Shown: positions 4,707 through 56,654 of the stretch, piece by piece
How positions within the stretch are numbered: the first letter of the stretch is position 1
How the letters are laid out: each line of letters opens with the position of its first letter
Virus record (IMG/VR): IMGVR_UViG_3300043395_000421
Location: 1-64,000 of that record
Source of the DNA: a virus
Strand: one strand, 5' to 3'
DNA: 64,000 nt
The notes under the pieces: model-generated
Seen by the model: the letters and a program-made list of their open reading frames with translations, nothing else
Told to the model about the DNA's origin: nothing
Database searches by the model: none
Translations under genes and position numbers: made by a program

Positions 4707-5858
4707 TTACTTTACGAGAGCAACCTTGGCTTTTGGATTAGCCTTATTCCATTTTGCAGCAAGTGCATTGAATGCCTTTTTAATTGCATCAAGAGCAGCA
4801 GAGTTATCTGCTTTTAATTTTGCAATTTCAGCATCTTTAGCAGCAACGGCATCGGATAGGGCTTTATCAGCAGCAAGCTTAGCGGTTACTGCATTAGCCT
4901 TAAGTGTTGCAACCTCTGCCTTAAGTGTTGCAATTTCTGCATCAGCAGTAGCCTTGGCAGTTGCAGCAGCAGTTGCAGCAGCAGCAGCGTCGGCAGCACG
5001 AGCAGACTTCTCTGTTGCTAAAGCAGCCTCAGCAGTAGCCTTGGCAGCAAGCGCAGCAGTAAGTTCTGCAGCAAGGTCACGAACTGCAATATTCTTTGCA
5101 ACAGATGAAGTAATGGTATTAAAACCAGTTACAGCAGTTGCCAAATCAGCAGAGTTTGTGACTGAAAAAATTACAGCAGCCGAACCATTGGTTGGAAGTG
5201 TAACCTTAAAATCACGGGCACCAAAGTCTGCTAGACCAGTGCCAGTTGTGGCAGTTGTCGTATCAAGAGTTCCGTTAGCAACTACTGCTGTAATTGACTT
5301 TCCAGAAACCTTATTACCGAATACATCCTTAGCGGTAACTGTTAGCGTCACCTGTGTACCAGAAGCACCGACGTCAAGACCAGATACTGAAATATCATTG
5401 ATCTTTCCGACTGCACCTTGTACATAATAAACCTTAGTTTCACCTTGGTTTGTAATGGAAACAGTTCCTACTGCGGTGGTCTTTGTAAAAACAAAGAATG
5501 TAGCAGTTGTTCCTGTTCCAGTTGCAATTGTTGTTGAAGCAGATCCACTAGCAGCAGTTACTGGAGCAGCAGCAGTTGCTGTTGCAAGTACGATAGAGGC
5601 GTTTGTTGCAGAAACCGCAACGGCTGTACCTGTATCTACTGTAACTACAAACTTTAGAGCATCAGCAGCATCAACAGAATTATCTGATGGAACTGGAAGC
5701 TCCACAGCAGTTGTTGTGGCTGTTCCCGCTGTTGCAGGGGCGCTACCATTAACAGTCAAAGCAACTGTCATAGGGGCGGCATTTGCAGGTGCCACTCCAA
5801 GGGTGCCCAGTGTCATGGCTGCAACCATGGCGAGAGCTATTTTCTTAAATGATTTCAT
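4707..5858 (-). CDS. Secreted Ig-like / coiled-coil surface protein, 383 aa
   Basis: The N-terminus is a classical signal peptide (KSFKKIALAMVAAM, cleavage after about residue 28 at ANAA). Residues 30-140 are Ala/Thr-rich beta-type sequence, and residues 150-260 resemble an invasin/BIg-type Ig domain (TLTVTAKDVFGNKVSGKSI). Residues 265-355 form an Ala-rich coiled coil with heptads of Ala, Lys and Glu, ending in a short KWNKANPKAK motif. A Sec-exported protein of this type is unusual in a phage and resembles actinobacterial S-layer-type proteins. An AAGGAG SD site precedes the ATG and a terminator follows, so it forms its own unit. It could coat the infected cell or be a virion adhesin; both are inference. 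Confidence 0.75.
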   Translation of the reverse strand: MKSFKKIALAMVAAMTLGTLGVAPANAAPMTVALTVNGSAPATAGTATTTAVELPVPSDNSVDAADALKFVVTVDTGTAVAVSATNASIVLATATAAAPVTAASGSASTTIATGTGTTATFFVFTKTTAVGTVSITNQGETKVYYVQGAVGKINDISVSGLDVGASGTQVTLTVTAKDVFGNKVSGKSITAVVANGTLDTTTATTGTGLADFGARDFKVTLPTNGSAAVIFSVTNSADLATAVTGFNTITSSVAKNIAVRDLAAELTAALAAKATAEAALATEKSARAADAAAAATAAATAKATADAEIATLKAEVATLKANAVTAKLAADKALSDAVAAKDAEIAKLKADNSAALDAIKKAFNALAAKWNKANPKAKVALVK

Positions 5859-5904: not shown

Positions 5905-6138
5905 CTATTTTATGTACGAATTCCGCCAATTTGATGGGGAATGGTTATCCTCTATACTTTGTTTCATCTCAATGTCTTCGTACATTCGAACAATATGCAT
6001 GCAAGGATCTTGACCTTCATCAAACTCTGCAAACTCTTGCTCAGACATTGGTAGTCCGTCATGTGTATAACATACTGGGGGTCCGCACCAACCTTTTTCA
6101 ATCCCGTATGTCATCCATTCACTAAATGTTATATCCAT
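5905..6138 (-). CDS. Small acidic conserved-type protein, 77 aa
   Basis: The protein has GWCGPPVCYTHDGLPMSEQE at residues 16-35 and a centre of Glu/Asp with DPCMHIVRMYED. It resembles a small family common in actinobacterial phage and metagenome contigs; no function is known to me. It overlaps the thioredoxin gene end by 10 bases and is probably co-expressed with it. Confidence 0.65.
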   Translation of the reverse strand: MDITFSEWMTYGIEKGWCGPPVCYTHDGLPMSEQEFAEFDEGQDPCMHIVRMYEDIEMKQSIEDNHSPSNWRNSYIK

Positions 6139-6431
6139 CCTTCAAACTCTTTCACGAGTTTGTGTTTAGGCTGTGCGCCAACCACTTTTTTGACTGGTAC
6201 TCCATTTTCGAATACCATTAATGTTGGTATTGTAGATATGTCGTACTTTGTAGCCAAATCTTGTTGTTCATCTACATGAACTTTAGCAATTGATACATTG
6301 TACTCACTTGCTATCTCATCTAATATTGGAGCAACCTTTAAACAAGGCCCACACCAATCCGCCCAAAAATCTACAATCAGTATCTTGTTGTCATTTAAAG
6401 CTTTACTAAAGGTTTCACTAGTTAGATTCAT
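6129..6431 (-). CDS. Thioredoxin
   Basis: This is a full-length 100-residue thioredoxin. The active site WCGPC is at residues 26-30 and the cis-proline is at residue 69 (STIPT). It should reduce disulfides in the cytoplasm; in phages such proteins may supply reducing power to ribonucleotide reductase or act as polymerase factors, but neither partner is known here. I start at the ATG ending at 6431 because it has a GGAGGA SD site five bases upstream and yields the usual family N-terminus; the longer ORF adds 15 unlikely residues. Confidence 0.93.
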   Translation of the reverse strand: MNLTSETFSKALNDNKILIVDFWADWCGPCLKVAPILDEIASEYNVSIAKVHVDEQQDLATKYDISTIPTLMVFENGVPVKKVVGAQPKHKLVKEFEGWI

Positions 6432-6903
6432 CTGTATCCTCCGCATGAGTTGGCCAGTAGTAACTGCAAGATTCACAGCAAGTATACCCTAGTTCACGAT
6501 AGTCCGCAAACTCCGAATAGAAATAGTACTTTTCTGGGTCCTTTTCGTATAACCTTCCCTTATGAGAATAATGTACACGCTCATCTCCTAGCCACCAAGG
6601 CTCATCTGATTCCAGCATAAGGAAATTTTCCTGATAGATCTGGTCGAATGTATCTCGTGTACTATTCTTATAGCCACGCATAATAATTTCTTTTACGATG
6701 GCTTCATTGTATAGGAACAGCCAATCTTCATGGCCCTCCCACATTTTGACGGCTGGATGATTCACCCATGCGCCTGATTCATTATAATATCCTGCAAGAG
6801 ACTTGAGGACCTGAAGATTTTCTACGCTTTGCTTAATAAGACGCTTACGATCTAAATGTTTAGCAGTCTTTGCAAAGTCCGCCTCTGGTAAAAATGTTTG
6901 CAT
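6418..6903 (-). CDS. Pyrimidine-dimer DNA glycosylase-like protein, 161 aa
   Basis: The opening MQTFLPEADFAKTAKHLDRKRL followed by KQSVENLQVLKSL and later WVNHPAVKMWEGHEDWL matches a family commonly annotated in actinophages as pyrimidine-dimer DNA glycosylase-like. The characteristic R-L-x-KQ and NHPAVxMW motifs are present; the link to true T4 endonuclease V activity is weaker. Three Cys residues at the C-terminus (CCESC) are an extra feature. Its promoter has -10 TAAGAT only six bases before the ATG, so its mRNA may be leaderless. Confidence 0.6.
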   Translation of the reverse strand: MQTFLPEADFAKTAKHLDRKRLIKQSVENLQVLKSLAGYYNESGAWVNHPAVKMWEGHEDWLFLYNEAIVKEIIMRGYKNSTRDTFDQIYQENFLMLESDEPWWLGDERVHYSHKGRLYEKDPEKYYFYSEFADYRELGYTCCESCSYYWPTHAEDTDESN

Positions 6904-8640: not shown

Positions 8641-8670
8641 ATTATACTCCTAGACCTCTATAATTGTAAA
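8641..8670 (-). promoter_or_regulatory. Leaderless-type promoter inside the 3' end of the upstream gene
   Basis: TTTACA (8670-8665), an 18-base spacer and TATAAT (8646-8641) are followed after six bases by the ATG at 8634. The -35 box lies within the last codons of the Ntn hydrolase gene. Confidence 0.7.
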
Positions 8671-9228
8671 GGGGCCTCTTACGCTCATTATGAACTTGGC
8701 TGATGCCTCTAGAGCCATTCTTACACGCTTTCGTGGAGTCTTTATTGTAGACGTAGAAAATAAAGATCCTAGCGCTACTTGCTGTCCGCTTCCTTCTGCA
8801 AGGTATTCAACATCAACTTCAGCAACATGGTAGTCTACATCCATAATAAATATTCTTCCAGTATTTTGTACTGCAATAATTATAATTCCACCTTCATCGC
8901 CATCTTCACCAGCGCTTGTACCGAATCTTCCATATCCGTGTTCTTGATAAGCTTCTTTAACAGATTCAACAAACTTGGTACGCATAAACTTATCTAAATT
9001 TTTATATCCTGCCGTCGGTTTATAAATTGGCGGAGTCCAGTTGTATTGTAAAATTTGTCCCATTCTAAAACTATCCACAAAGCCAATGCCAAACTGTCCT
9101 ACTCTAAAAACTTTAGGATCTGTTGTTTGAAGTATTAAACCAGACTTTTCATCTGATGCGGCAGAATCTCCTCCAAGAAATACCTTGTTCCCAGAAGATA
9201 GGGCTACGATACAGGTCATATACCCCAT
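8650..9228 (-). CDS. Proteasome-like Ntn hydrolase, 192 aa
   Basis: After a short start (MGYM) the sequence TCIVALSSGNKVFLGGDSAAS matches a proteasome beta-subunit N-terminus. Counting the Thr after MGYM as position 1, an Asp falls at position 17, as in the proteasome, and a Lys at 35 near the usual Lys33. The remaining sequence has the alternating strands and Gly-rich turns of the Ntn fold. The Thr would become the N-terminal nucleophile after removal of Met; an ATG three codons in, giving exactly Met-Thr, is therefore an attractive alternative start (8650-9219). Homologues without assigned function occur in actinophages. It may act as a protease or amidohydrolase. Confidence 0.75.
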   Translation of the reverse strand: MGYMTCIVALSSGNKVFLGGDSAASDEKSGLILQTTDPKVFRVGQFGIGFVDSFRMGQILQYNWTPPIYKPTAGYKNLDKFMRTKFVESVKEAYQEHGYGRFGTSAGEDGDEGGIIIIAVQNTGRIFIMDVDYHVAEVDVEYLAEGSGQQVALGSLFSTSTIKTPRKRVRMALEASAKFIMSVRGPFTIIEV

Positions 9229-13546: not shown

Positions 13547-13741
13547 TTAGTCCTCTTTTCTTAGTGGTATTGTTGCTAGCCAAATAATAGTAGCAATTAC
13601 TGTCGCTACTCCTACAACTTGCTGAGCACTACCCGTTAGGGTCAACCATGCTATAAAAAATCCTAGGAGGGTAAATATTTGGGCAATGCTTTCTTTAATT
13701 ACCTCCCAGACGTAGCTAAGGACCTTTTTAATTATTTTCAT
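13547..13741 (-). CDS. Small two-helix membrane protein, 64 aa
   Basis: A basic N-terminus is followed by two hydrophobic segments (IFTLLGFFIAWLTL and VVGVATVIATIIWLA) and the tail PLRKED. It overlaps the upstream secreted protein gene by one base and precedes the next membrane protein by two. It may be a holin, antiholin or accessory pore protein. Confidence 0.6.
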   Translation of the reverse strand: MKIIKKVLSYVWEVIKESIAQIFTLLGFFIAWLTLTGSAQQVVGVATVIATIIWLATIPLRKED

Positions 13742-15264
13742 TATTTCCTCCTTGTCATGGCTGCTGCCACAATATTACTTGCGATAATTACAGGAATAAC
13801 TACTTCCTGAGCTTTTTCTCTTTGGTCATCTGTCATATCCTTACCCCATTCTGAGGGACTAAGAACTTTTTCTAAATCTATATTTGTTAATGCACCTATT
13901 GGATCCGCCAAAAATTTTTCTGCTTGAACCTCTGTTGTTGCATCAGCCAACGTATATGGCATGGGTGCATCTAAATTAGCATTTGCTCTGTCTCCAAATT
14001 CTTGTAGTGCTTCTGCTACCGCCTCATTTGTTTTTGCTAATTCTACTATTTTTGTCACTTCTTCAGATTTAATACCAAGGGTAGAGGCAACTGCAGCTTT
14101 TTGTTCTGGACTTAATGTTGCAAGAGTTTGGCTACTTGTAAGATCGGCAAGCAGTCTAGACATATCTTCAGACACTTCTGTATTTTCTGTTTTATCTTGA
14201 ACTGGTATTACAATATCTTCTTCTGGAAAACGTGGATCTTCTGGAGTAATTATTTCTGGTTCCACTACCACAATTTCTGGTTTTGTGGTATTATCTGGAG
14301 ATGGTTCTGGAGAAGGTTCAATTGGAGATGGAGCAGGTGTTGGCTCTGGAGTTGGAGTTATATCCGTTGGCTGAGGTGAAGGCTCTGGTGAGGGCTCAGC
14401 TGTGGGCTCAGGAGAGGAACTTGGAGTTGGTTCTGGTGTCAAGGTTGTTTCGGGCGTTGGAGTTGGAGTGGGATCGCTTGGTTGAGTTTGCTCAGGCGAT
14501 GGCATTGGAGTAGGTTCTACATTTTGTGCGCTGGCAATTGCATTTGCAATTAAGTTTGCCGTAACACGCATTTCTTCTTGAACAGCTAATTGTTCCTGTG
14601 TTGGTCCAACAACAACTGGTTCTGGCGCTAATGTAGGTGTAGAAGATCCTGGCTGTATTTGTGTTGCTCCCCATGCATCTAATGAAACAATTGAGCCATT
14701 ATGTAATCTAACGCCAGTTCTCATATTATTATATTCTGGACCTTGATAACTATATGAAACCGCAAGGTTGCCTGTATTTGTAATTGCTACAAGAATATTA
14801 ATTGTACTTGGTTGAGCTCCCCATTGTCCAAATGGAATTGCTTGCATATTTAATTGAAATCCGCCTTCTGAATATAATATGTCTAAAGTATTTGGCGCAT
14901 TATACCAACCTGTAACCCAATCCATAGAATATAAAGAAATTGATGGGGTTTGTGGATAATCCCAATATGTATTATCTGCTCGTCCAAAAGTAATTACTGA
15001 ATTAGTTGTAGCATAAACATTTGAATATTGAACGCCATCAAATGTAATTGTTGTTGCTATTGGTATCTGATAAGATACATCGTCTCCGCCACAAGTATCC
15101 ATTGTATTAACTGTGGGTACTGGATCGCCTTCATAAGCGGCTGCTATTGTTTGTGATTGTAAATAATTAACGCAAGTTGCGTAGGCGTTTGACGGAACAA
15201 GAAAAGCCCAGCCAAACATTAAAATTGCGGCTAATGATAATCTCCATAACTTAGTTCCAGTCAA
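13741..15264 (-). CDS. Secreted proline-rich extracellular protein, 507 aa
   Basis: The start is a TTG preceded by a perfect AAGGAG SD site at 15271-15276. Residues 1-29 are a signal peptide ending SNAYA. Residues 30-215 form a beta-rich domain with two Cys (ATCVNY, DTCGGDD). Residues 245-345 are a Pro/Thr/Glu/Ser spacer with PTPEPTP-type repeats, typical of a wall-spanning linker. Residues 365-485 are helical, and the end is a hydrophobic helix plus RRK (VVIPVIIASNIVAAAM), which looks like a membrane anchor. The whole resembles an actinobacterial surface protein displayed through the cell wall. It sits at the head of the lysis/membrane cluster. Confidence 0.75.
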   Translation of the reverse strand: MTGTKLWRLSLAAILMFGWAFLVPSNAYATCVNYLQSQTIAAAYEGDPVPTVNTMDTCGGDDVSYQIPIATTITFDGVQYSNVYATTNSVITFGRADNTYWDYPQTPSISLYSMDWVTGWYNAPNTLDILYSEGGFQLNMQAIPFGQWGAQPSTINILVAITNTGNLAVSYSYQGPEYNNMRTGVRLHNGSIVSLDAWGATQIQPGSSTPTLAPEPVVVGPTQEQLAVQEEMRVTANLIANAIASAQNVEPTPMPSPEQTQPSDPTPTPTPETTLTPEPTPSSSPEPTAEPSPEPSPQPTDITPTPEPTPAPSPIEPSPEPSPDNTTKPEIVVVEPEIITPEDPRFPEEDIVIPVQDKTENTEVSEDMSRLLADLTSSQTLATLSPEQKAAVASTLGIKSEEVTKIVELAKTNEAVAEALQEFGDRANANLDAPMPYTLADATTEVQAEKFLADPIGALTNIDLEKVLSPSEWGKDMTDDQREKAQEVVIPVIIASNIVAAAMTRRK

Positions 15265-15606: not shown

Positions 15607-15636
15607 ATTATACTATTTCTTCTTCTTGCGTTTCAA
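15607..15636 (-). promoter_or_regulatory. Promoter of the structured leader / fmdB
   Basis: TTGAAA (15636-15631), an 18-base spacer and TATAAT (15612-15607) lie across the 3' end of the hsp20 gene. Confidence 0.6.
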
Positions 15637-16122
15637 GAGGCCTTCTTTTTCTGCCTGCTCAAGCATTTCATCCTGCTCTGCGCCAGAAATTGCGGCTAAT
15701 TCATCACCATCAGTAATTGAAAACACTTTTGGTTTTGCTTCCTCTGGAACCCTCTTGATTAAATTAACTATTAGCATTCCTTGTAGCATTATAGCGCTAT
15801 GTACTTCAACATATTCTGCAAGAGAAAATGTTCTTGTAAAATTGCGACCTCCAATGCCTCTGTGAATGTAGGTGCTACTGGTGTCTGATTTGCTTTCACC
15901 AGTAATCGTTAAAACATTTTTTTCCTGTTTTACCGTGATGTCTTCTTTGCTAAATCCTGCCAAAGCAATTTCAACAGCATAGGAGTCTTCTCCAATTTGT
16001 TTTAGATTGTATGGCGGGTAATTAGTAGATGCACCCATAAGTTTTTCAAGATCTTTAATATGGCGATCCCAGCCAATAAAAAATGGATCTTTAAAAAGAT
16101 CCAATGATAGGTTTGTAACCAT
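15613..16122 (-). CDS. Small heat-shock protein Hsp20, 169 aa
   Basis: The alpha-crystallin domain spans about residues 40-125. It has VEIALAGFSKEDITVKQEKN, then GGRNFTRTFSLAEYVEV, and ends GMLIVNLIKRVPEE with the V-x-L motif that binds partner subunits. The protein should act as an ATP-independent holdase in the cytoplasm; similar genes occur in cyanophages and may aid capsid folding. A Lys-rich C-terminus follows. An AAGGAGG SD site and a near-consensus promoter precede it. Confidence 0.92.
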   Translation of the reverse strand: MVTNLSLDLFKDPFFIGWDRHIKDLEKLMGASTNYPPYNLKQIGEDSYAVEIALAGFSKEDITVKQEKNVLTITGESKSDTSSTYIHRGIGGRNFTRTFSLAEYVEVHSAIMLQGMLIVNLIKRVPEEAKPKVFSITDGDELAAISGAEQDEMLEQAEKEGLLKRKKKK

Positions 16123-16150
16123 TTTATTCCTCCTTCAAGCGAATAAATTA

Positions 16151-16181
16151 ATATGTGGGCCCCTGACGGCGACCCACATAT
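16151..16181 (-). terminator. Hairpin between hsp20 promoter and gene
   Basis: ATATGTGGG and CCCACATAT form a perfect 9-pair stem with a 13-base loop, followed on the minus strand by TTAATTTATT. It would stop readthrough from the 59-aa gene, while the hsp20 promoter starts inside its first arm. Confidence 0.6.
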
Positions 16182-16210
16182 ATTATAGCAAAAAGCTTTT
16201 TAGATTACAA
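16182..16210 (-). promoter_or_regulatory. Promoter of hsp20
   Basis: TTGTAA (16210-16205), a 17-base spacer and TATAAT (16187-16182) form a strong promoter. The -35 box overlaps the stop codon of the upstream gene, and the spacer contains the perfect palindrome AAAAAGCTTTTT. Confidence 0.65.
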
Positions 16211-16384
16211 GATGCGTTTTTTCTTCTCTTTCATCTTTTCTTCATTTGCTGTTGCGGCATATAGGGCTCTTTGATGAGCCAATGCTCTTCCTCTGCTTGG
16301 GTGACATCCTTTAAGTTCGCCCTTATCATTAACTACTGCAAACCCTCTGCACCCTGCTACATTCTGTTTAATATTGTATGGCAT
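16205..16384 (-). CDS. Small conserved-type phage protein, 59 aa
   Basis: The protein starts MPYNIKQNVAGCRGFAVVND and has GCHPSRGRALAHQRALYAA. This pattern (C...FAVVN...G-CHPS-x-A...ALYA) matches a short domain often found beside phage prohead proteases. Here it stands alone in the accessory region and has a basic tail. Function is unknown. Confidence 0.65.
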   Translation of the reverse strand: MPYNIKQNVAGCRGFAVVNDKGELKGCHPSRGRALAHQRALYAATANEEKMKEKKKRIL

Positions 16385-16392
16385 ATTATCTC

Positions 16393-16707
16393 CTAATCAT
16401 TTGGGGGCTCTGGCATATCCATTTGGATTAGCCCCAATTCTTTTGCAAGCTTTTGTCCTTCTGGACTAAGATGTAGTGTTGCTTCAAGATTTTCATCATA
16501 TTCAACCTCCATCAAACCTTTTTCATATAACTTAACAAGAGTTTCATCGACATAACTTGTATGAGCTTCCCATAATTCTGGTGCTATGTCTTTAGCTTTT
16601 TCATCTATAGCAAATATAAGTTCACCATTTTCATCCATGCCTTCCAGAGTTATTGCACCTATTTCTAAATAGTGCTCTAGCTCCATTCCGAACTCCTCTT
16701 CATCCAT
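16393..16707 (-). CDS. Acidic hypothetical protein, possible winged helix, 104 aa
   Basis: The protein is strongly acidic, with a central helix pair (APELWEAHTSYVDETLVKLY) and a C-terminal strand-turn-strand-helix (MEVEYDENLEATLHLSPEGQ), which resembles a winged-helix wing. The first ATG lies six bases after TATAAT and has no SD site, so translation is likely leaderless. Confidence 0.6.
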   Translation of the reverse strand: MDEEEFGMELEHYLEIGAITLEGMDENGELIFAIDEKAKDIAPELWEAHTSYVDETLVKLYEKGLMEVEYDENLEATLHLSPEGQKLAKELGLIQMDMPEPPND

Positions 16708-16713
16708 ATCTTT

Positions 16714-16719
16714 ATTATA
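16714..16719 (-). promoter_or_regulatory. -10 box for the 104-aa gene (leaderless type)
   Basis: TATAAT lies six bases before the ATG at 16707, just after the 3' end of the tRNA gene; the matching -35 region would fall inside the tRNA. Confidence 0.45.
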
Positions 16720-16729
16720 CTCTCTTTTG

Positions 16730-16803
16730 TGTGGCGTGTAGGACTTGAACCTACGACGGCCAAATTATGAGTTTGGGGCTCTGACCAACTGAGCTAACGC
16801 CAC
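16730..16803 (-). tRNA. tRNA with anticodon CAU (Met, possibly Ile2)
   Basis: The minus strand folds into a complete cloverleaf: acceptor GTGGCGT/ACGCCAC, D arm GCTC/GAGC, anticodon stem CCAAA/TTTGG with loop CTCATAA (anticodon CAT at 16767-16769), and T arm GTAGG/CCTAC with loop TTCAAGT. The discriminator is A and CCA is not encoded. The loop CTCATAA fits elongator Met in actinobacteria; an Ile tRNA with modified CAU cannot be excluded. Confidence 0.93.
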
Positions 16804-16809
16804 CTAGCC

Positions 16810-17061
16810 CTATTGTATTGTGCCATCCTCATTTTTGTCAATGGTTGTCTCCACTAACTGCTGGACGTAATCAGAGAAATGTTTTCTGACGCTTCCAGGT
16901 GGTCTTGATCCAAGAGATTTCCACAATCTCTTATATTCAACTACATTTGCAAATGTGGTAGGGCAAAGCATATATCCCGCATACTCTTTTAGGGTAGTAG
17001 GCAGTGGTACATGTTTTCCACAGCATTTACATTCTTTAGCTTTATCTTGATATATGCTCAT
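16810..17061 (-). CDS. Zinc-binding protein after the terminase, 83 aa
   Basis: The protein has ECKCCGKHVPLP and a later YMLCPTTFANVVEYKRLWKS, giving three Cys plus a His in a knuckle-like array, then a basic stretch (GSRPPGSVRKHFSDYVQQLV). It is coupled to the terminase gene by ATGA. A small HNH-like or terminase-associated DNA-binding role is possible, but the HNH triad is not evident. Confidence 0.65.
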   Translation of the reverse strand: MSIYQDKAKECKCCGKHVPLPTTLKEYAGYMLCPTTFANVVEYKRLWKSLGSRPPGSVRKHFSDYVQQLVETTIDKNEDGTIQ

Positions 17062-18863
17062 AGTATTTCCATTCCATCTAGTACGTCCGCCAATTTTGAA
17101 GGCATCTTTGGTGGTCTAATTACATTAAGTCTAACGTCTTCTTCCTGTCTATCATTTCTACGTGCAATTGAGTCGTATGTATGCACATTTATTTCCTGAT
17201 TAGTTTCAAATTTACTTCTGCTTATAGCGTTATATATTGAACCACATACAGCATCCGCCAAGTCTTTTGATCCTTTTCTTGGATGATCTACTCTATCACG
17301 CATAATTTTCAGCTGCAAAAGCTCATCTATAAGTAATTTAATATTAGGCCCAGAAAGCCTTTCTTCCGCCACTACCATAGCCATATCATCATAATGCTTT
17401 TTGGCAACTGACAAAGTCTCCGTATTTATTCCGTAGGCTTTTAGCTGCTGCATCATGTCATGCGAATTCCATCTATCAAATGTGCAGACTCTTATTTTAA
17501 ATCCACGAGTTCTTAAAGACAAAATATAATCTTTTACCTCTGTAAAATCTACAGATTTATCAGCAGTAGGAGTCCAATATCTAACTGCATCTACTTCTAC
17601 GATTGGCGCAGGCTGGGAGTATGTATCGGTTACTTTTACATTTACCCACTTTTGAACATGGGCCATAGATACGGCACAATGGTCATGCTTTTGTGCCAAG
17701 TCTACATGCAAGAAGTATTCCTTATCAGGGTCTGGTGCGAACCAATTTTCAAATCTACCAAAGTTGTCTACTGCCAGCGCCATATTGTTAAATGCTTTTT
17801 CTATTTTCTCACGAGACTTAAAGAAAGCATCTACTGCTTCTGGGGGCATACAGGCAAAGCGACCTAATGCATCTGGCATATTTTTATAAAATTCTACCTT
17901 AAAGTTTTCTATGCTTTTAGTTGGATTAATTTCCCATGTTGGTCTTTTGAGAGCATAGACCTTTGGAATTGTATAAGAGATGATATGATCTTCTTCCCAT
18001 TCAACTACAAATTCATTTCCCTCTGTGCCGTCTGGCAACTCTTCATCCATCTTTAACTTCTTGGTTCTAATTATTGTTTCTTTTTCTGCTATTACAGAAT
18101 CATAAAATTTTTGTATTGGATCATTTTTAAATCGGGGAAACGACAAAAGAATTACTTTGCCGTAATCTGGAAAACGAGATACGACAGATCCACGATACAT
18201 ATCGTATATAGCATCTGCAGTTTTAGCTTGGTCATGCCCAGTAGTATTCTCTGTGGCGAATCCAGAAATTTCATCTAGGATAACGGCTATGACGTTATAA
18301 CCTTCGAATGCTTCACGCTCAGAGTGTCCAGAGTATACGTTTACATTCTTGTTAAATCTGACTTCCGAAGCCTTTGGATCATACTTTCCAATAAACCATG
18401 GGGATCTATCTATGCGTGTTTTAAATCCCTTGAAGAAAACATTGTTTGCTTGCTGTGCGTTGACAGCAATATTAAGAATATCAATGGTATCTCCAGGAGG
18501 CTTTCCATAATATGTGGCAGGATCTTTTAGGCATAGCAGCAAATAAACTATGTAAGAAACCGAGATAGTGGAGCAGTAATCTTTGCCGCTTCCTTTTCCT
18601 AGTTGTGCAATAACTTCATTACATGTTTGCTTGAATCTACGACGACCTTCTTCTTCGCCAAACAATTTTATTAGGGTAGACTCTTTATAAATCTGAGACG
18701 ACTTTTCAATTAACGTATATTGATTTTCAGAAAGTGGCGGTAGTCCAAGATAGTCTGGGCTTGTTACAAATGTCTTAAGATCAACTGGTCTTTCATCAAA
18801 TTCTTCTCCGTCAAGAATATCAATGAGATCATTAAAATTAAGATCCACTTGCTTCCTCTGCAT
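17058..18863 (-). CDS. terL: Terminase large subunit
   Basis: The packaging ATPase motifs are clear: Walker A GKGSGKD near residues 89-95 and Walker B VIAVILDE near 192-199. The RNase-H-fold nuclease follows, with an acidic strand YFLHVDLAQKHDHCAVSM near residue 390, a middle motif CTFDRWNS near 465, and KDLADAVCGSIYNAI near 550. It should translocate DNA into the prohead at the portal and cut concatemers. I start at the ATG ending at 18863, one codon inside a TTG-started ORF; it overlaps the small subunit by 26 bases. Confidence 0.92.
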   Translation of the reverse strand: MQRKQVDLNFNDLIDILDGEEFDERPVDLKTFVTSPDYLGLPPLSENQYTLIEKSSQIYKESTLIKLFGEEEGRRRFKQTCNEVIAQLGKGSGKDYCSTISVSYIVYLLLCLKDPATYYGKPPGDTIDILNIAVNAQQANNVFFKGFKTRIDRSPWFIGKYDPKASEVRFNKNVNVYSGHSEREAFEGYNVIAVILDEISGFATENTTGHDQAKTADAIYDMYRGSVVSRFPDYGKVILLSFPRFKNDPIQKFYDSVIAEKETIIRTKKLKMDEELPDGTEGNEFVVEWEEDHIISYTIPKVYALKRPTWEINPTKSIENFKVEFYKNMPDALGRFACMPPEAVDAFFKSREKIEKAFNNMALAVDNFGRFENWFAPDPDKEYFLHVDLAQKHDHCAVSMAHVQKWVNVKVTDTYSQPAPIVEVDAVRYWTPTADKSVDFTEVKDYILSLRTRGFKIRVCTFDRWNSHDMMQQLKAYGINTETLSVAKKHYDDMAMVVAEERLSGPNIKLLIDELLQLKIMRDRVDHPRKGSKDLADAVCGSIYNAISRSKFETNQEINVHTYDSIARRNDRQEEDVRLNVIRPPKMPSKLADVLDGMEIL

Positions 18864-19377
18864 CAAGAATAACTGGCTCTACTACTCCAGTTATTTGAGA
18901 CAAGCGTTTCGCAACTTCCATTTTACATTTAGGACAGGTTGCTGTTACTTCTTTTAATATTTTAACTAATACATCTTGCTTTCGTTCGGTCTCTGCTACC
19001 TGCGATGCCAATTCTTGATTGTCCAACAATCCGACTTCTTGTAGCATTCCAATACGCTTGCCTTCAATATCTGCAATTAGTTTTAATGCTGTTGCTTTTA
19101 TATTTAATTGTCCCGCCTGATCTGCATCCTCTACGGTCTTCCAGGCCTCTTTAATAAGCATGGCATAGTGTTGGTCTGCTCCAGAGATGGCTTCCTTTGC
19201 CCTGTCACGGGCCCCAGAATCGCTTCTAACGACCTCTTTCCACTCGTCTATATATCCTAGGACATCTGAACGTTTAAAACCCGTTATAGAGGCAATCTGA
19301 GTGGGATTGTTACCTTTGAGTAATTCTTCAACAACCTTGTTCATGCGATCAAAATGATCAGCTAATTCAATTTCCAT
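18838..19377 (-). CDS. terS: Terminase small subunit
   Basis: The N-terminus contains a helix-turn-helix (NPTQIASITGFKRSDVLGYI, residues 24-43), followed by a long helical oligomerisation region and a CPKC pair near residue 145 that may bind zinc. It precedes the large subunit in the same operon, as usual for DNA-recognition subunits. The -10 box of the promoter lies eight bases before the ATG, leaving almost no leader. Confidence 0.78.
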   Translation of the reverse strand: MEIELADHFDRMNKVVEELLKGNNPTQIASITGFKRSDVLGYIDEWKEVVRSDSGARDRAKEAISGADQHYAMLIKEAWKTVEDADQAGQLNIKATALKLIADIEGKRIGMLQEVGLLDNQELASQVAETERKQDVLVKILKEVTATCPKCKMEVAKRLSQITGVVEPVILDAEEASGS

Positions 19378-19385
19378 ATGTAATT

Positions 19386-19414
19386 ATTATACTCTTAGTC
19401 GACTAAAATATCAA
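19386..19414 (-). promoter_or_regulatory. Terminase promoter with a palindrome in the spacer
   Basis: TTGATA (19414-19409), a 17-base spacer and TATAAT (19391-19386) form a strong promoter whose -35 overlaps the stop codon of the upstream gene. The spacer contains the perfect 12-base palindrome TTAGTCGACTAA (19395-19406), a likely operator. Confidence 0.7.
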
Positions 19415-19734
19415 CTGGATTTAGCTATTTTGAGCAGGATTAAATAGCCAATCAGGTCATCAATATCATTATCTCCTGGATAATCTGAACCCTTCATAAG
19501 TCTACTTAATTTATCGTCTATGCGGACATATAATTGTTCTCTTGGTTCCGCCTTCGAAAATATGCGGACGGGAGACAAAGCAGAATCTCCATAAGAGATA
19601 TTCTTATCTATTAACATCTTTGCAATTTCATGGCAGGAGTCTAAAATCTTTCTACCAGAAGGAGCACCTATTGAATATAGGTAAAGATCATTACAGTCAA
19701 ATCTATTAGCGTCTGGGAATATCGGTTCAGGCAT
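19411..19734 (-). CDS. DUF1599 / nucleotide-modification-associated-domain-like protein, 107 aa
   Basis: The core MLIDKNISYGDSALSPVRIF, then YVRIDDKLSRLMKG, then DDLIGYLILLKIA resembles DUF1599 (Nmad1), an all-alpha domain linked by comparative genomics to nucleotide or DNA modification and distantly like MazG. It is probably cytoplasmic and may bind a nucleotide. It overlaps the sugar nucleotidyltransferase by 8 bases and is the last gene before the terminase promoter. Confidence 0.6.
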   Translation of the reverse strand: MPEPIFPDANRFDCNDLYLYSIGAPSGRKILDSCHEIAKMLIDKNISYGDSALSPVRIFSKAEPREQLYVRIDDKLSRLMKGSDYPGDNDIDDLIGYLILLKIAKSS

Positions 19735-20395
19735 TATCCATCTCCTTGTATAACTGTTTAAGTCCTCTTAGCGTTCCAATATCCATATATCGTCCGCCTG
19801 GTCTTACTGCCCTAATATTTGCACCATCCTGTATCCAATCTTTTAATTGTTTACCTGGATGGTCCAATTTTGGATCTAGATATCTTATCATATTTTTGCG
19901 AAATAGCATAGTGCCCCACATATCTGGATAATCGCAATTATCTATTTTATCTTCTGATCCTACAACTTTATCGTCAGATATTAATACCTGTCCAACTCGT
20001 CCTTTTAATTCATTTGTACATTCCCACACCCCAAGAACAATATCTGCGTTATTATCTTTCATCATTTCTTTATAAATATTTACTGGAGCGTTTAAAATAA
20101 ATGTATCTGGCATTCCAATTATTACAGTATCATTATATTCTCCAACCATGAACTTAACTGCATCAGACATAGTAGATGGCTCACGAACAATTAGCTTAAT
20201 ATTCATATCCATATTTTGAACAATCGGGACCCACTCTGGTCTAGTTGCTACACGAACTTCATCGCAAACTTCTAGCATTTGCTCTACGTGCCATTGAAGT
20301 AATGATCTTTCATCGGATACTGGCAAGCAAAACTTTGGTATTCCGCCAATTCTTGATGCCTTGCCAGAGGCTGGCAAAACTCCTATCGTAGCCAT
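19727..20395 (-). CDS. Sugar-1-phosphate nucleotidyltransferase-like protein, 222 aa
   Basis: The N-terminus IGVLPASGKASRIGGIPK is the NTP-binding signature of nucleotidyltransferases (Rossmann strand, GxxxR, and PK). A metal-binding Asp in VIIGMPDTFILN and a substrate loop GVWECTNELKGRVG follow, and GRYMDIGTLRGLKQL closes the fold. It should make an NDP-sugar from a sugar phosphate. I start at the ATG ending at 20395 because of a GGAGGG SD site; the longest ORF adds ten residues. The adjacent glycosyltransferase could use its product. Confidence 0.78.
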   Translation of the reverse strand: MATIGVLPASGKASRIGGIPKFCLPVSDERSLLQWHVEQMLEVCDEVRVATRPEWVPIVQNMDMNIKLIVREPSTMSDAVKFMVGEYNDTVIIGMPDTFILNAPVNIYKEMMKDNNADIVLGVWECTNELKGRVGQVLISDDKVVGSEDKIDNCDYPDMWGTMLFRKNMIRYLDPKLDHPGKQLKDWIQDGANIRAVRPGGRYMDIGTLRGLKQLYKEMDNA

Positions 20396-21024
20396 TCGTG
20401 ATCCCTCCTTCTTGATAAAGACCAAGGTTTTGGTTGTTCGAAGTTTGTAGTTTGTTTGTATTTATAGTATTCTTGATTTTTTACAAATGTCTCGTGGTTT
20501 TTATTTTTTAATTTATCGTCGCTATTTATTGTTTGGCTTCCAACTTCGGGAGCGGTTTGAATTGAAGTTGATACTATTGTGTTTTCAGGACAAAACCTTG
20601 CTACTCTTTCATGAAAGTCGTTGTCTTCAAAATATATGGGATAAAAATATTCATCGAATAATCCCACTTTTTCTATTACGTTTTCTCCTACAGAAAAACA
20701 TCCGTACGCATCATTAGTTAGTATTAATTTATCTGGTCCACTGATGTTATCTATTTCTTGTAAGGCTGTTTCTGACCATTTAGTATCTGCTGATGCAAAA
20801 AGCCAATACTTGGCATGGGGGAAACATTTAATTGCTAAATTCCATGAAGCTGATAGTCCTAGATTAGCTGGCATATTTAAAACTTTTATATTTCTATCTG
20901 TTTTAAATTCTCCACCGTTATCTATAATTAATATATTATCTATTGGATAATTAATAGAATTAAGCATATCTTCTAATAAGTCATATCTATTTAAAACTGG
21001 AACTACTAGTACTGGTATGCTCAT
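20383..21024 (-). CDS. GT2-type glycosyltransferase, 213 aa
   Basis: The sequence PVLNRYDLLEDMLNSI with IIDNGG, MPANLGLSASWNLAI and WLFASADTKW matches the nucleotide-sugar-binding half of family 2 glycosyltransferases, and FYPIYFEDNDFHERV matches the acceptor/catalytic ED motif. It should transfer a sugar to an unknown acceptor in the cytoplasm, such as phage DNA, a virion protein or a host polymer. It overlaps the nucleotidyltransferase by 13 bases and the HTH gene by ATGA. Confidence 0.8.
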   Translation of the reverse strand: MSIPVLVVPVLNRYDLLEDMLNSINYPIDNILIIDNGGEFKTDRNIKVLNMPANLGLSASWNLAIKCFPHAKYWLFASADTKWSETALQEIDNISGPDKLILTNDAYGCFSVGENVIEKVGLFDEYFYPIYFEDNDFHERVARFCPENTIVSTSIQTAPEVGSQTINSDDKLKNKNHETFVKNQEYYKYKQTTNFEQPKPWSLSRRRDHEWLR

Positions 21025-21161
21025 TTAATTAATCCATTATCTTTTAGTGCCCTATATATGGTCATTGTAGTAACGCCACATTCTTTTGCTATTTCTTCCA
21101 TGGTCTTTTTTTGCACAATATATCGTCGATACAGCCAATCTTTACTTTTATAAAGCTTCAT
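21021..21161 (-). CDS. Small helix-turn-helix protein, 46 aa
   Basis: A 46-residue ORF starts MKLYKSKDWLYRRYIVQ and has KTMEEIAKECGVTTMTIYRALKDNGLI, a clear resolvase/Hin-type helix-turn-helix. It overlaps both the RuvC-like gene and the glycosyltransferase gene by ATGA. It could regulate this operon or recruit a partner to DNA. Confidence 0.7.
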   Translation of the reverse strand: MKLYKSKDWLYRRYIVQKKTMEEIAKECGVTTMTIYRALKDNGLIK

Positions 21162-21724
21162 CGTTCAGTTAACACCGTATTTGAATAGTGGGCAATGCCG
21201 AATGCATCTGCCACATCAAAATCATCTAGTTTTAAATTGTACTTACTGTTAAAGTAATCTACAGTTCTTTGCTTTCTAATCTCCCGCATTTTTGCTTTAT
21301 ACCAAGAGTCAGCATATCCTGGATTTTCAAACCTAAGTTTGTCCTTCTCCAGCTTTGTTGGGTTCTTGTTTCCAATATAAGCCTGCCAAGATGTAGGAGA
21401 TATAGTGATAACACTAGCGCCACTAGACATAAGCTCAGCAATGACAACACCATAGACATATGATAATTTTATCACGGCATCTGGGGATTTGACAAACACT
21501 GCTCCTTCTACAACAATATAATCAGACTTTAATTCATCTAGCATGGCATGCATTTTAACTTTAGCATCATGTATTTTCTCATATATGTCTGATCCAGAAA
21601 ATTCTACTTTGCCCCATTTAATTGGTTTATCATTTTCCATAAGGCAAAAGGCAACAGAGTTTGTTGAAGCATCTATGCCAAGGACTCTATTAGCTTTAGT
21701 TTTAATTAACTCACCCAATCTCAT
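21158..21724 (-). CDS. RuvC-like Holliday junction resolvase
   Basis: The RNase-H fold is visible with catalytic acids Asp18 (VLGIDASTNS), Glu73 (YIVVEGAVF) and Asp170/Asp173 (DDFDVADAFGIAHY). It should resolve branched DNA before packaging. The gene lies between a zinc-finger gene and the HTH microgene in the replication-recombination block, where phage RuvC homologues usually sit. Confidence 0.85.
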   Translation of the reverse strand: MRLGELIKTKANRVLGIDASTNSVAFCLMENDKPIKWGKVEFSGSDIYEKIHDAKVKMHAMLDELKSDYIVVEGAVFVKSPDAVIKLSYVYGVVIAELMSSGASVITISPTSWQAYIGNKNPTKLEKDKLRFENPGYADSWYKAKMREIRKQRTVDYFNSKYNLKLDDFDVADAFGIAHYSNTVLTER

Positions 21725-21989
21725 CGATCATCCTCAACAATTTGTTCTTTTGATTTATATCGATTTTTTTCTGACAGCCAGAACATACATTAGATTCGTT
21801 ATATCTGCTTAGCCTAGCGTTACATTTTTTGCATAATCTTTTTGCCCCACCTCTAATTGCCTTTTTCTCATAATATTTTTCCATGATTCTACGATTAGTA
21901 GCAATACGGCAACACTCATCTGAACAATACTTTTGATTATGTGTTTTTGCCTCAAAGTCTTTCGCACATTCTTTATTAGCACAAATCAT
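21711..21989 (-). CDS. Double zinc-ribbon protein, 92 aa
   Basis: Two zinc sites are visible: MICANKECAKDF with QKYCSDECCR in the first half, and RLCKKCNARLSRY with VCSGCQKK in the second. The region between is basic. Such proteins are often encoded next to phage RuvC and nuclease genes and are thought to bind DNA; the exact role is unknown. Confidence 0.7.
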   Translation of the reverse strand: MICANKECAKDFEAKTHNQKYCSDECCRIATNRRIMEKYYEKKAIRGGAKRLCKKCNARLSRYNESNVCSGCQKKIDINQKNKLLRMIDEIG

Positions 21990-22771
21990 TATTTCTGCAC
22001 CTCATATGGCTCTATTTGAACTTCTCCAGTTGGTCCTGCCCAGCATTCTTTTTTAATTGGACACCCTTTGCAGGCATAACTTGTTTTTACAAACGGTCTT
22101 ATTGGAAGTCCGCCATCTTTAAAGTTATCATAAACTTCACATAGCCAAACAAATAAATTATCTATAACTTCTTTATTCTTATCATTCATCTGAATTGGAA
22201 TCAAAAGAATTTCCTGTGTATTTTTATTTTCGTACAAAAAGAAGGCTTCTTTTACATTCCTCAATTTCATATATGTAAGCAACTGAAGCATGTGGTTTGC
22301 TGATGGTGACATTTCTGCCTGCCTTGTATCCCATACCTCCTGCTTAGCCGTTTTAATTTCTCCAAGAACTTCTTCGTCATCCCAATTAATTACGAGATCT
22401 ATGAACCCACGAATTGGAGGATACTCATTTTTAATCTCTATTTCAGTCTGTACTGACTTTATTGGAGCTCCCATTTTTTCAATTAGGCCTTGCAATCTTT
22501 CATGAGCCTGAGTTCCTTGAGCCATATTTGCGACTGCCTTTGCGTCGTTGTTATCTACAAAAGTTGCTCCGCTAAATGCCATATACCAATAACGTGGACA
22601 GTTTCCATTGCCATATCCAAAACTACTTGGGCTAAATGTATATTTAGTCATTTCTCCATCTGCACGTTTTGTAGCAAGATAGGCATCATCAAGCATCTTG
22701 GCAAATTCTTTAGGATCAAATTTACCTTCATATTTTTTAAACTTTAAGTTTTTTACTATGTCTCTAGCCAT
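21989..22771 (-). CDS. Cas4/RecB-like PD-(D/E)XK exonuclease, 260 aa
   Basis: The nuclease core is RGFIDLVINW followed by VLGEIKTAK, giving the Asp and E-x-K metal ligands, and an upstream GTQAHERL provides the His motif. Cys residues at GNCPRYW and CKGCPIKKEC are placed as in Cas4-type iron-sulfur nucleases. It probably resects DNA ends for RecA-dependent recombination. The start is uncertain: the longest ORF uses TTG at 22804, and I prefer the ATG at 22771 (MARDIVKNL), overlapping the upstream gene by 8 bases. Confidence 0.8.
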   Translation of the reverse strand: MARDIVKNLKFKKYEGKFDPKEFAKMLDDAYLATKRADGEMTKYTFSPSSFGYGNGNCPRYWYMAFSGATFVDNNDAKAVANMAQGTQAHERLQGLIEKMGAPIKSVQTEIEIKNEYPPIRGFIDLVINWDDEEVLGEIKTAKQEVWDTRQAEMSPSANHMLQLLTYMKLRNVKEAFFLYENKNTQEILLIPIQMNDKNKEVIDNLFVWLCEVYDNFKDGGLPIRPFVKTSYACKGCPIKKECWAGPTGEVQIEPYEVQK

Positions 22772-23099
22772 TATAGCGAACAACATACTTGAGGGCATCC
22801 ACAAGTTTGTCTATCGACTCCTTTGCCGAATAGTATATATTCTTTTTATTATTATTTACCGTCCCAGCCTTGTCTTTAGCAATAGTTGAGTATACAGAGG
22901 CAAGCATAGAAAACTTTGTAGACATTGCCTGTAGTTCAATTATAAGATGTGGCGCTTTTGCTGCTGGTACATCTGGGTTTAGTAAAAGCTTTACCACGAT
23001 AGCAAGAGCTTTATCAAGCTGTTCATCCTTCATATATTCATGCAGATCATTAAACTCTGTTATATCATTAATTAACTCTAATGTATTTTTCTCTGTCAT
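22764..23099 (-). CDS. Hypothetical helical protein, 111 aa
   Basis: I start at the ATG ending at 23099 (MTEKNTLELINDI), which forms an ATGA overlap with the upstream membrane gene; a longer ORF exists. The protein is helical with a mid-section VPAAKAPHLIIELQAMSTKF and a Lys/Asn-rich NNNKKN loop. It resembles small proteins encoded beside recombination genes in actinophages, but no function is known. Confidence 0.65.
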   Translation of the reverse strand: MTEKNTLELINDITEFNDLHEYMKDEQLDKALAIVVKLLLNPDVPAAKAPHLIIELQAMSTKFSMLASVYSTIAKDKAGTVNNNKKNIYYSAKESIDKLVDALKYVVRYNG

Positions 23100-23239
23100 G
23101 CCAATACCTTTGTTACTATAGCGTATCCAATCCATAGTCCAACGATTCCCATCAATCCAGCAAATACTGGAGGTGCTGGAATTGGAAGCTTGAATGCGCT
23201 AAATACTCCACCTACAATAGCTCCAACTAATGTTGTCAT
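23096..23239 (-). CDS. XapX-domain membrane microprotein, 47 aa
   Basis: The sequence TLVGAIVGGVFSAFKLPIPA and PPVFAGLMGIVGLWIGYAIV is a match to the XapX domain, a two-helix membrane unit with a conserved PxPAP-P turn, whose function is not established. I start at the ATG ending at 23239, after a GAGAG SD-like site. It sits inside the replication operon between a nuclease-like gene and a helical protein. Confidence 0.65.
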   Translation of the reverse strand: MTTLVGAIVGGVFSAFKLPIPAPPVFAGLMGIVGLWIGYAIVTKVLA

Positions 23240-23250
23240 AAATATATCTC

Positions 23251-23550
23251 TCACTCGTGCCACTTTTCTACTAGCTGTTCCAGTAATGACCACTCAATTA
23301 CTGCTAATCTTGTCTTACTATTGTCTTCACCTATAACTAATTTTAATACTGGATAATATGCCCTACTTACCTTAAAGGTATCTGTGCATACTTTTGCCCA
23401 CATTTCTTTTGACACTAATACAGATTTACCAGACTCTTTATAGTCAACAACAAAGCCATTCCAGATAGCATCACCCTTTTGGTAATCTCCCCTGCCGCTA
23501 TTCTTTTGTTGTTTTGCGCCGTCTCTTTTTGCTTCTGATCTTTCTGACAT
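23251..23550 (-). CDS. Putative PD-(D/E)XK resolvase-like protein, 99 aa
   Basis: The pattern KQQKNSGRGDYQKGDAIW, then FVVDYKESGKSVLV, looks like the Asp and D-x-K active site of small Holliday-junction-resolvase or VRR-type nucleases, though the usual E-x-K is D-Y-K here. A basic N-terminus precedes it. It is located between a zinc-ribbon gene and XapX downstream of recA. The call is tentative. Confidence 0.5.
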   Translation of the reverse strand: MSERSEAKRDGAKQQKNSGRGDYQKGDAIWNGFVVDYKESGKSVLVSKEMWAKVCTDTFKVSRAYYPVLKLVIGEDNSKTRLAVIEWSLLEQLVEKWHE

Positions 23551-23732
23551 TAGTTTATCCTGTATGAATTTTTATGACCGTCTGGGCATGTCCAAGTCAT
23601 TTCTAAATTTTGTGCATTCCAATAATAAAAGTCTGAGTCCTTGCTACATTTTGAGCATGGCCTAGACTCTTCAATTTTATCTAGGCCTGGGATTGGCTCT
23701 TTGTTTTGTATGAATTCATTAAGACTTGGCAT
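23550..23732 (-). CDS. Zinc-ribbon protein next to recA, 60 aa
   Basis: The protein has RPCSKCSKDSDFYYWN and TWTCPDGHKNSYRIN, so Cys-x2-Cys plus Cys and His can bind one zinc ion. It overlaps the recA-like gene by 14 bases and is likely co-translated with it. Confidence 0.65.
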   Translation of the reverse strand: MPSLNEFIQNKEPIPGLDKIEESRPCSKCSKDSDFYYWNAQNLEMTWTCPDGHKNSYRIN

Positions 23733-24723
23733 CTATAGCCTTAACAAGTTTGTCTACTACTTTTGGATTATCACGAAGGAATTGCACGGCTTTTGCTCTT
23801 CCTTGTAGCCGCTCACCTTCCACGGTGTACCAAGCGCCACCTTTTTCCACGACTCCGCACATTTCGGCAACATCAAGTACTTCTCCTGTCCTATCAATAC
23901 CAATAGTTTCTCCTTGGTAATAAAAATCATATTGTCCTGCAAGATTAGGTGGACCTAGCTTATTATAATCAATAATCCAATTTACTGGTCTTCCTACCCT
24001 TTGTTCAATAATCTTATCTCCAACTTTAACGCCAGCCTTGATCGCATTCGCTTCAGCTTCCGAGCTCCATAGTTTAATAACAGTAGATGAGAAGAATTTA
24101 ACCGCCATTCCACCCGTCGGAATATGAGAAGCATGCATAGACCCAAATTGATTACGTTGTTGTGATATGAGGACAAGAAGCGTGTTCTTGTTTGCATAAT
24201 TAAGCATCTTAACTGCATGTGTCATATCCTTTGCTTCTGCGCCGATCTGTTTGGTATCTTCAAGCTTCTTTAATTCTGAACTATCTTTTTCAAAATAAAT
24301 TGCTGGAAGTAAGGCAGATATAGAATCAACTACAATTAGGTCGACTTCTGCCTCCATCAATTGTGTAGCAACGTCAACCATGTCGTTAATTGTTTTTGCT
24401 GGGGAATAGATCAATTTAGATGAGTCTACCCCAAGCCGTTCCGCCCAACCTTTATCATAAGATGCTTCTGCGTCAATCCAGGCACAAGTCTTACCATTCT
24501 TTTGTGCTTCTGCTATCATCTGTAGACAGAAAGATGACTTGCCAGCAGACTTATTACCCCAAACTAAGACTTGTCTTCCGAAGCCAAGTCCTCCCTTTAG
24601 AGCAAGATTCAAACCAATGCTAGGCGTTGGCTGTCTTTCTACTTGAACATCTACTGCTGACTGTACTCTTGATCTAGTTTTTGGATCTAATTTTGCTAAT
24701 ATATCTTCTATTACAATTGTCAT
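23719..24723 (-). CDS. recA: RecA-like recombinase, 334 aa
   Basis: The ATPase core has Walker A GNKSAGKSS (residues 56-64) and Walker B VDLIVVDSISALLP (residues 127-140). The L1/L2 region includes LISQQRNQFGSMHASHIPTG and GMAVKFFSSTVIKL, as in bacterial RecA. A C-terminal domain of about 80 residues follows (LQGRAKAVQFLRDNPK). It should form filaments on ssDNA and drive strand exchange for phage recombination and repair. An AAGAAAGAG SD site precedes the ATG, with a TATAAT box about 20 bases further. Confidence 0.92.
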   Translation of the reverse strand: MTIVIEDILAKLDPKTRSRVQSAVDVQVERQPTPSIGLNLALKGGLGFGRQVLVWGNKSAGKSSFCLQMIAEAQKNGKTCAWIDAEASYDKGWAERLGVDSSKLIYSPAKTINDMVDVATQLMEAEVDLIVVDSISALLPAIYFEKDSSELKKLEDTKQIGAEAKDMTHAVKMLNYANKNTLLVLISQQRNQFGSMHASHIPTGGMAVKFFSSTVIKLWSSEAEANAIKAGVKVGDKIIEQRVGRPVNWIIDYNKLGPPNLAGQYDFYYQGETIGIDRTGEVLDVAEMCGVVEKGGAWYTVEGERLQGRAKAVQFLRDNPKVVDKLVKAIDAKS

Positions 24724-56635: not shown

Positions 56636-56654
56636 TATATTTTTCACCTACCTT

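Follow-up and report, generated by a model that had tools for sequence, protein, structure and literature searches.

An exchangeable glycosylation cassette, probably acting on the phage particle, in a fixed slot of a Stanwilliamsviridae-like lake phage

Two adjacent genes of a lake phage, encoding a GT2 glycosyltransferase and a sugar-1-phosphate nucleotidylyltransferase (NTase), appear to form a two-gene glycosylation cassette carried as cargo in a fixed slot of the genome, and the sugar would most likely go to a protein of the phage particle; we put the probability of this reading at about 0.6. The phage is Stanwilliamsviridae-like and is represented by a 70,442-base IMG/VR virus record, of which the window, that is, the whole stretch of DNA analysed here, covers 64,000 bases.

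Two cargo genes lie between two fixed border genes

The slot, its flanks and the major capsid gene are laid out as follows.

21158..21724, minus strand: RuvC-like resolvase, backbone upstream of the slot (Pfam PF02075 2.6e-5, PHROG 159 1.1e-23)
21021..21161, minus strand: HTH microprotein, 46 aa, backbone, left slot border (many weak HTH families)
20383..21024, minus strand: GT2 glycosyltransferase, 213 aa, cargo gene 1 (Pfam PF00535, PHROG 29879)
19727..20395, minus strand: NTase, 222 aa, predicted RmlA/GalU fold, cargo gene 2 (Pfam, predicted fold)
19411..19734, minus strand: PHROG 1485 protein, 107 aa, backbone, right slot border (PHROG 1485 8e-11, function unknown)
18838..19377, minus strand: probable terminase small subunit, backbone downstream of the slot (PHROG 9507 2.7e-56, function unknown)
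17058..18866, minus strand: terminase large subunit (TerL), 62% identical to the BillNye terminase
55583-56647: major capsid protein (MCP), named by reading the sequence

A sequence-only reading of this DNA had described four overlapping genes at 19411-21161 as one possible cassette. All four ORFs were found on the minus strand with short overlaps, the HTH gene sharing an ATGA of 4 nt with the GT2 gene and the NTase gene sharing 8 nt with the 107-aa gene. Because purifying selection acts on all four (pN/pS 0.12-0.42 in pairwise codon comparisons with four relatives, synonymous sites being near saturation in several) and were found again in many virus contigs, they are not chance ORFs. The RuvC, PD-(D/E)XK nuclease and terminase neighbours reported before were likewise recovered with Pfam and PHROG. 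The product of 18838..19377 is 46% identical to TunaTartare gp86, annotated as a terminase small subunit, and TerL gave one match per record in 12/12 related records. A blastn search of 16001-24000 against the phage collection returned distant backbone matches only. Several window genes, like the ribonucleotide reductase and collagen-like proteins of the related record G001, were named by reading the sequences without a search, as were HSP20-like, thioredoxin-like and Ntn-hydrolase-like genes at 15613-16122, 6129-6476 and 8650-9228, respectively.

The four genes are not a single unit, however. The HTH gene, whose earlier assignment agrees with matches to many HTH families, all weak, is kept beside filled and empty slots and also occurs in Streptomyces phages. 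The PHROG 1485 gene likewise stays where the glycosyltransferase and NTase are missing, as in 51/150 slots that are empty. The idea of a four-gene cassette was therefore abandoned: the HTH and PHROG 1485 genes are fixed backbone, and GT2 and NTase are exchangeable cargo between them. Nor was the 107-aa protein confirmed as DUF1599/Nmad1-like. Pfam returned no family for it at E<=1 and none for two of its orthologues at E<=10; PF07659 (DUF1599) had no hit at E<=1 in any of 11 related records, and PHROG 1485 was the only family matched. A search for genuine DUF1599 members to compare it with matched 0/146 genomes. A low-confidence AF2 model (pLDDT 56.7, too poor for a structure search) suggests that this protein is probably all-helical. 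In the phages G005 and G009 a DUF3310-type protein replaces the PHROG 1485 gene (L292:3403-3672, Pfam 3.2e-12; L293:6006-6269). Proteins starting just downstream of TerL in L292 and L293 look similar to an Ala/Thr-rich window protein with an apparent signal peptide (4707-5858, minus strand).

The GT2 and NTase genes probably make and use an NDP-sugar

The earlier GT2 call was borne out by a match to Pfam PF00535 above the cut-off (1.5e-5, 25.5 bits, cut-off 23.3) and by conserved acidic motifs, with invariant Glu and Asp residues in an alignment of 19 relatives (A2), where E125, D134, D136 and R140 are among the invariant positions. The protein carries the motif FDEYFYPIYFEDNDFHER and also matched PHROG 29879 (4.6e-38), and its profile matched the solved GT2 enzymes 5hea, 9jma and 6h1j, and also 5tze. 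Hydropathy analysis revealed no evident membrane helix in GT2 (maximum over 19 aa, 1.01) and no obvious one in the NTase.

For the NTase we preferred the ATG at 20395, which stands behind a strong ribosome-binding site (AAGGAGG), over the listed TTG at 20425. Its Pfam match is to NTP_transf_3 (MobA-like, 1.3e-6), and neither its profile nor that of PHROG 1485 found anything in a sequence search of the PDB. The AF2 model of the NTase (pLDDT 88.2), searched against the PDB with Foldseek, matched RmlA/GalU-type enzymes (best E 5e-13, TMq 0.68-0.81), including glucose-1-phosphate thymidylyl- and uridylyltransferases. G11, R15, K21, D97 and D205 are invariant among 15 homologues and presumably represent the Gly-rich loop with its Arg, the Lys and the two metal-binding Asp. 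Fold and invariant catalytic signature together uphold the previous assignment as a sugar-phosphate nucleotidyltransferase. In a tblastn search with the NTase no phage record matched, and a search of genome contigs with the NTase alignment returned one locus (L231), on a phage-like contig that is assigned to a cyanobacterial MAG. Since its gene order, PolIII-RecA-RuvC-HTH-GT-NTase-TerL, is that of these phages, this contig is probably a phage.

GT2 and NTase would thus probably work as a pair, to judge from their sequences. The NTase, with the fold predicted for it, would condense a sugar-1-phosphate and an NTP into an NDP-sugar, most likely a dTDP- or UDP-hexose, and the soluble GT2 would then pass the sugar to an acceptor, most likely one of the phage's own particle proteins. 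In the cassettes of deeper relatives an epimerase/dehydratase-family gene adjoins an RmlC gene; from this a dTDP-sugar donor may reasonably be guessed, and no more than guessed.

Slot contents vary on a conserved backbone

To survey the slot we collected loci with the cassette and PHROG 1485 as homology queries, called ORFs in the fetched neighbourhoods with a simple ORF caller and labelled them by BLASTP to window genes. The counts below are biased by this way of sampling and are not population frequencies. The order RuvC, HTH, PHROG 1485 gene, terminase small-subunit candidate, TerL was conserved across relatives. GT2+NTase occupied 48/150 distinct slots and GT32+NTase 19/150; 51/150 were empty with PHROG 1485 retained, and one more was empty in the DUF3310 variant. 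Most of the others contained sets that were larger or built around GT25 and included CTP-transferase-like, FkbM, epimerase, RmlC, methyltransferase or IMPDH genes, as identified with Pfam. According to a tally of the census table, a glycosyltransferase was present in about 92 of 98 filled slots, and a nucleotide-sugar enzyme in about 84. Two slots include an IMP dehydrogenase/GMP reductase-family gene (L233:9292-10314, PF00478 1.3e-88; L245:9667-10701, by similarity). In L078 a 253-aa protein that combines an APS-kinase domain with a weak cytidylyltransferase-like one (L078:6216-6977) is inserted together with a 70-aa protein between RuvC and HTH, an insertion also seen in several other relatives.

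Cultured phages of the Stanwilliamsviridae have a corresponding slot. BillNye, Gilson and TunaTartare have the order RuvC-(DprA)-HTH-glycosyltransferase(s)...terminase, with an HTH of the same family. Slot contents differ: TunaTartare and Gilson carry HTH-GT25-GT-CTP-transferase, that is, GT25, a second GT family and a CTP-transferase-like gene in contrast to GT2+NTase in the window, and among the other Streptomyces phages BillNye has GT25 and Starbow an FkbM methyltransferase. The GT25 label in TunaTartare, Gilson and BillNye comes from similarity to slot proteins and from PHROG 16010, Pfam giving no match. No PHROG 1485 gene was recognised in the slots of these three phages, and dNMP kinase and DnaQ-like genes come next. 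In Tomas nothing lies between HTH and thymidylate kinase. Because Samisti12 carries the GT25-GT-CTP-transferase trio elsewhere in its genome, an empty slot alone does not show that a phage is devoid of the cassette.

Cassettes are replaced between closely related phages

We compared the window by blastn with L156, L157, L158, L212, L218 and others. The comparison with L157 gives sharp boundaries: its flanks are 98.6% identical to the window over 16001-19721 and 92% identical over 21016-23300.

19722..21015, minus strand: segment replaced in L157, no blastn match between the flanks at the cut-off used

One breakpoint coincides with the HTH stop, the other lies 13 bases inside the PHROG 1485 gene, and the slot of L157 contains a CTP-transferase-like gene and GT25. 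On a backbone tree built with FastTree from RuvC and the terminase small-subunit candidate (138 rows), the slot type changes at least 24 times; many branches are weakly supported, but GT2+NTase still requires 9 changes when only the starred branches are counted. After L005, the rows that group nearest to the window are ones with GT25 cassettes. In G005 and G009 TerL is only 55-57% identical to that of the window while the NTase, part of another cassette away from the terminase, is about 84-86% identical, which points to horizontal transfer. Recombination in the flanks would account for the observed gene-precise replacements, and the expected outcome is that phages alike in other respects would swap their sugar coats.

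The sugar acceptor is most likely on the phage particle

Virion glycosylation is the best-supported reading of the target, on indirect evidence from sequence comparison. Relatives of the window GT2 were found in 40 loci whose capsid, neck or tail genes are of the type of the Pontimonas phage phiPsal1, typically in the order MCP-GT-GT2-neck, and the cassettes of these loci share CTP-transferase-like and epimerase families with slot cassettes. The phiPsal1 GT2 itself is 41% identical to that of the window and stands in a cassette with a group-1 glycosyltransferase and a methyltransferase. This cassette differs in lying within the virion gene block, between the major capsid protein and a neck gene, and an NTase of the window type was not seen there. 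The position of the window slot, beside terminase and recombination genes and not beside a capsid gene, counts against a virion target.

A second comparison is with the genes gp108-gp110 of mycobacteriophage Che8, which are virion glycosylation genes according to Freeman et al. 2023 as cited in PMC12363180 and PMC11256854; the former reports gp110 as essential for capsid glycosylation. Like the window cassette, this is a short co-directional set of an actinophage; it comprises small GTs (GT2, GT25) and an O-methyltransferase-type domain. In contrast, it sits near the genome end instead of between RuvC and terminase, and an NDP-sugar synthase is part of the window cassette only. Che8 gp110 belongs to PF01755 and is weakly related to the TunaTartare slot GT25 (24.7% over 73 aa, E 4e-5). 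The window GT2 is not specifically related to gp110 (profile E 0.35) or to any other Che8 gene, so the functional link is indirect, by way of other genes that can fill the slot and of distant relatives (37-53% identity).

A different destination would be a cell-wall polymer or surface protein of the host, glycosylated during infection, for example to block superinfection; exchange of cassettes would then track host surface diversity. Two of the solved enzymes matched by the GT2 profile, 6h1j and 5tze, are wall-polymer glycosyltransferases, which we take to be TarP and a TarS-like enzyme, respectively. Cell-wall polymers are also modified by soluble GT2s, and an exchangeable, dispensable cassette is compatible with such a role too. 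In a study of freshwater actinophages, glycosylation of the cell wall is put forward as one function of phage glycosyltransferases (PMC10202952). However, the cassette has neither a membrane partner nor an evident membrane helix, and it is virion genes that surround the GT2 relatives; we consider a host-surface target unlikely.

The acceptor could also be a phage-encoded secreted or tail-fibre protein and not the capsid, such as the product of 13741-15264 or collagen-like tail proteins. At the far end of the phage's own record (L294:119-2593, about 63.6-66.1 kb) a collagen-like 466-aa protein is followed by a second, group-1 glycosyltransferase (Pfam 1e-16), an arrangement that also speaks for a virion target in general, and NTases 84-86% identical to that of the window lie in cassettes of other phages near tail-type or collagen-like genes. 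Against this, the candidates in the window are far from the slot and, a secreted protein excepted, a tail-fibre acceptor is a variant of virion glycosylation and not a separate mechanism. We regard this narrower version as quite improbable. The product of 13741-15264 (minus strand, 507 aa) has what looks like a signal peptide and a stretch rich in Pro, Thr and Ser, as read from the sequence, and no Pfam match; it is a possible glycan acceptor.

The least probable target, by our estimate very improbable, is a hydroxymethylated base of the phage DNA, as in T-even phages; the Nmad1-like protein would then be an accessory. Attachment to DNA was one option of the sequence-only reading. In its favour are the adjacency of a glycosyltransferase and a nucleotide-sugar enzyme to recombination and terminase genes and the DNA role suggested for glycosyltransferases of other freshwater actinophages (PMC10202952). 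It is countered by the missing DUF1599, by the persistence of PHROG 1485 without the cassette and by the slots themselves, where none of the genes was recognised as encoding a DNA base-modifying enzyme. In the 11 related records, which are possibly incomplete, the thymidylate synthase/hydroxymethylase family (PF00303) had no match and Tet_JBP (PF12851) none above its curated cut-off; G001, one of these records (106.9 kb, about 100% identical over the cassette), had no Tet_JBP match even below it. T-even glucosylation resembles the proposed pathway in using a glycosyltransferase with an NDP-sugar but differs in that the related records searched have no hydroxymethylase family match and the window cassette is dispensable and exchangeable. 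The T-even glycosyltransferase families also differ from that of the window. Of the earlier claim that the pair makes an NDP-sugar and attaches it, the virion or host part thus fits the comparative evidence, whereas the DNA part is not supported.

Three candidates for DNA-modifying enzymes were rejected. Proteins in L150 and L151 with Tet_JBP matches below the cut-off match 2OG-FeII_Oxy_3 much better; the Tet_JBP matches of L147 and L148 are broken by stop codons; and the "DNA methyltransferase" label of phiAsp2 gp34 (PHROG 2675, L375:2992-4782) conflicts with its Pfam match to Methyltransf_24 and with a record note that calls it an O-methyltransferase. The N-terminus of phiAsp2 gp34 is similar to a phage glycosyltransferase. 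Genes resembling 2OG-Fe(II) oxygenases occur in L149-L154 of the related records (read by eye beyond L150 and L151), the one in L151 adjoining a collagen-like protein.

Biological meaning of the slot

Few phages are reported to have glycosylated virions. We tentatively suggest, as somewhat short of an even chance, that Stanwilliamsviridae-like phages have a dedicated, gene-precise exchange site beside the terminase at which whole glycosylation cassettes, for NDP-sugar synthesis, transfer and O-methylation, are swapped or dropped, so that near-identical phages would form particles with different sugar coats. Such a site would be the phage counterpart of a bacterial serotype locus. The case also cautions that phage glycosyltransferases near replication genes need not mean DNA modification. 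If the slot does control particle glycans, phages with flanks up to 98.6% identical and the cassette replaced would be natural near-isogenic pairs, and the cultured Streptomyces phages, some with a filled slot and some with an empty one, would make roles in host range, superinfection and particle stability testable.
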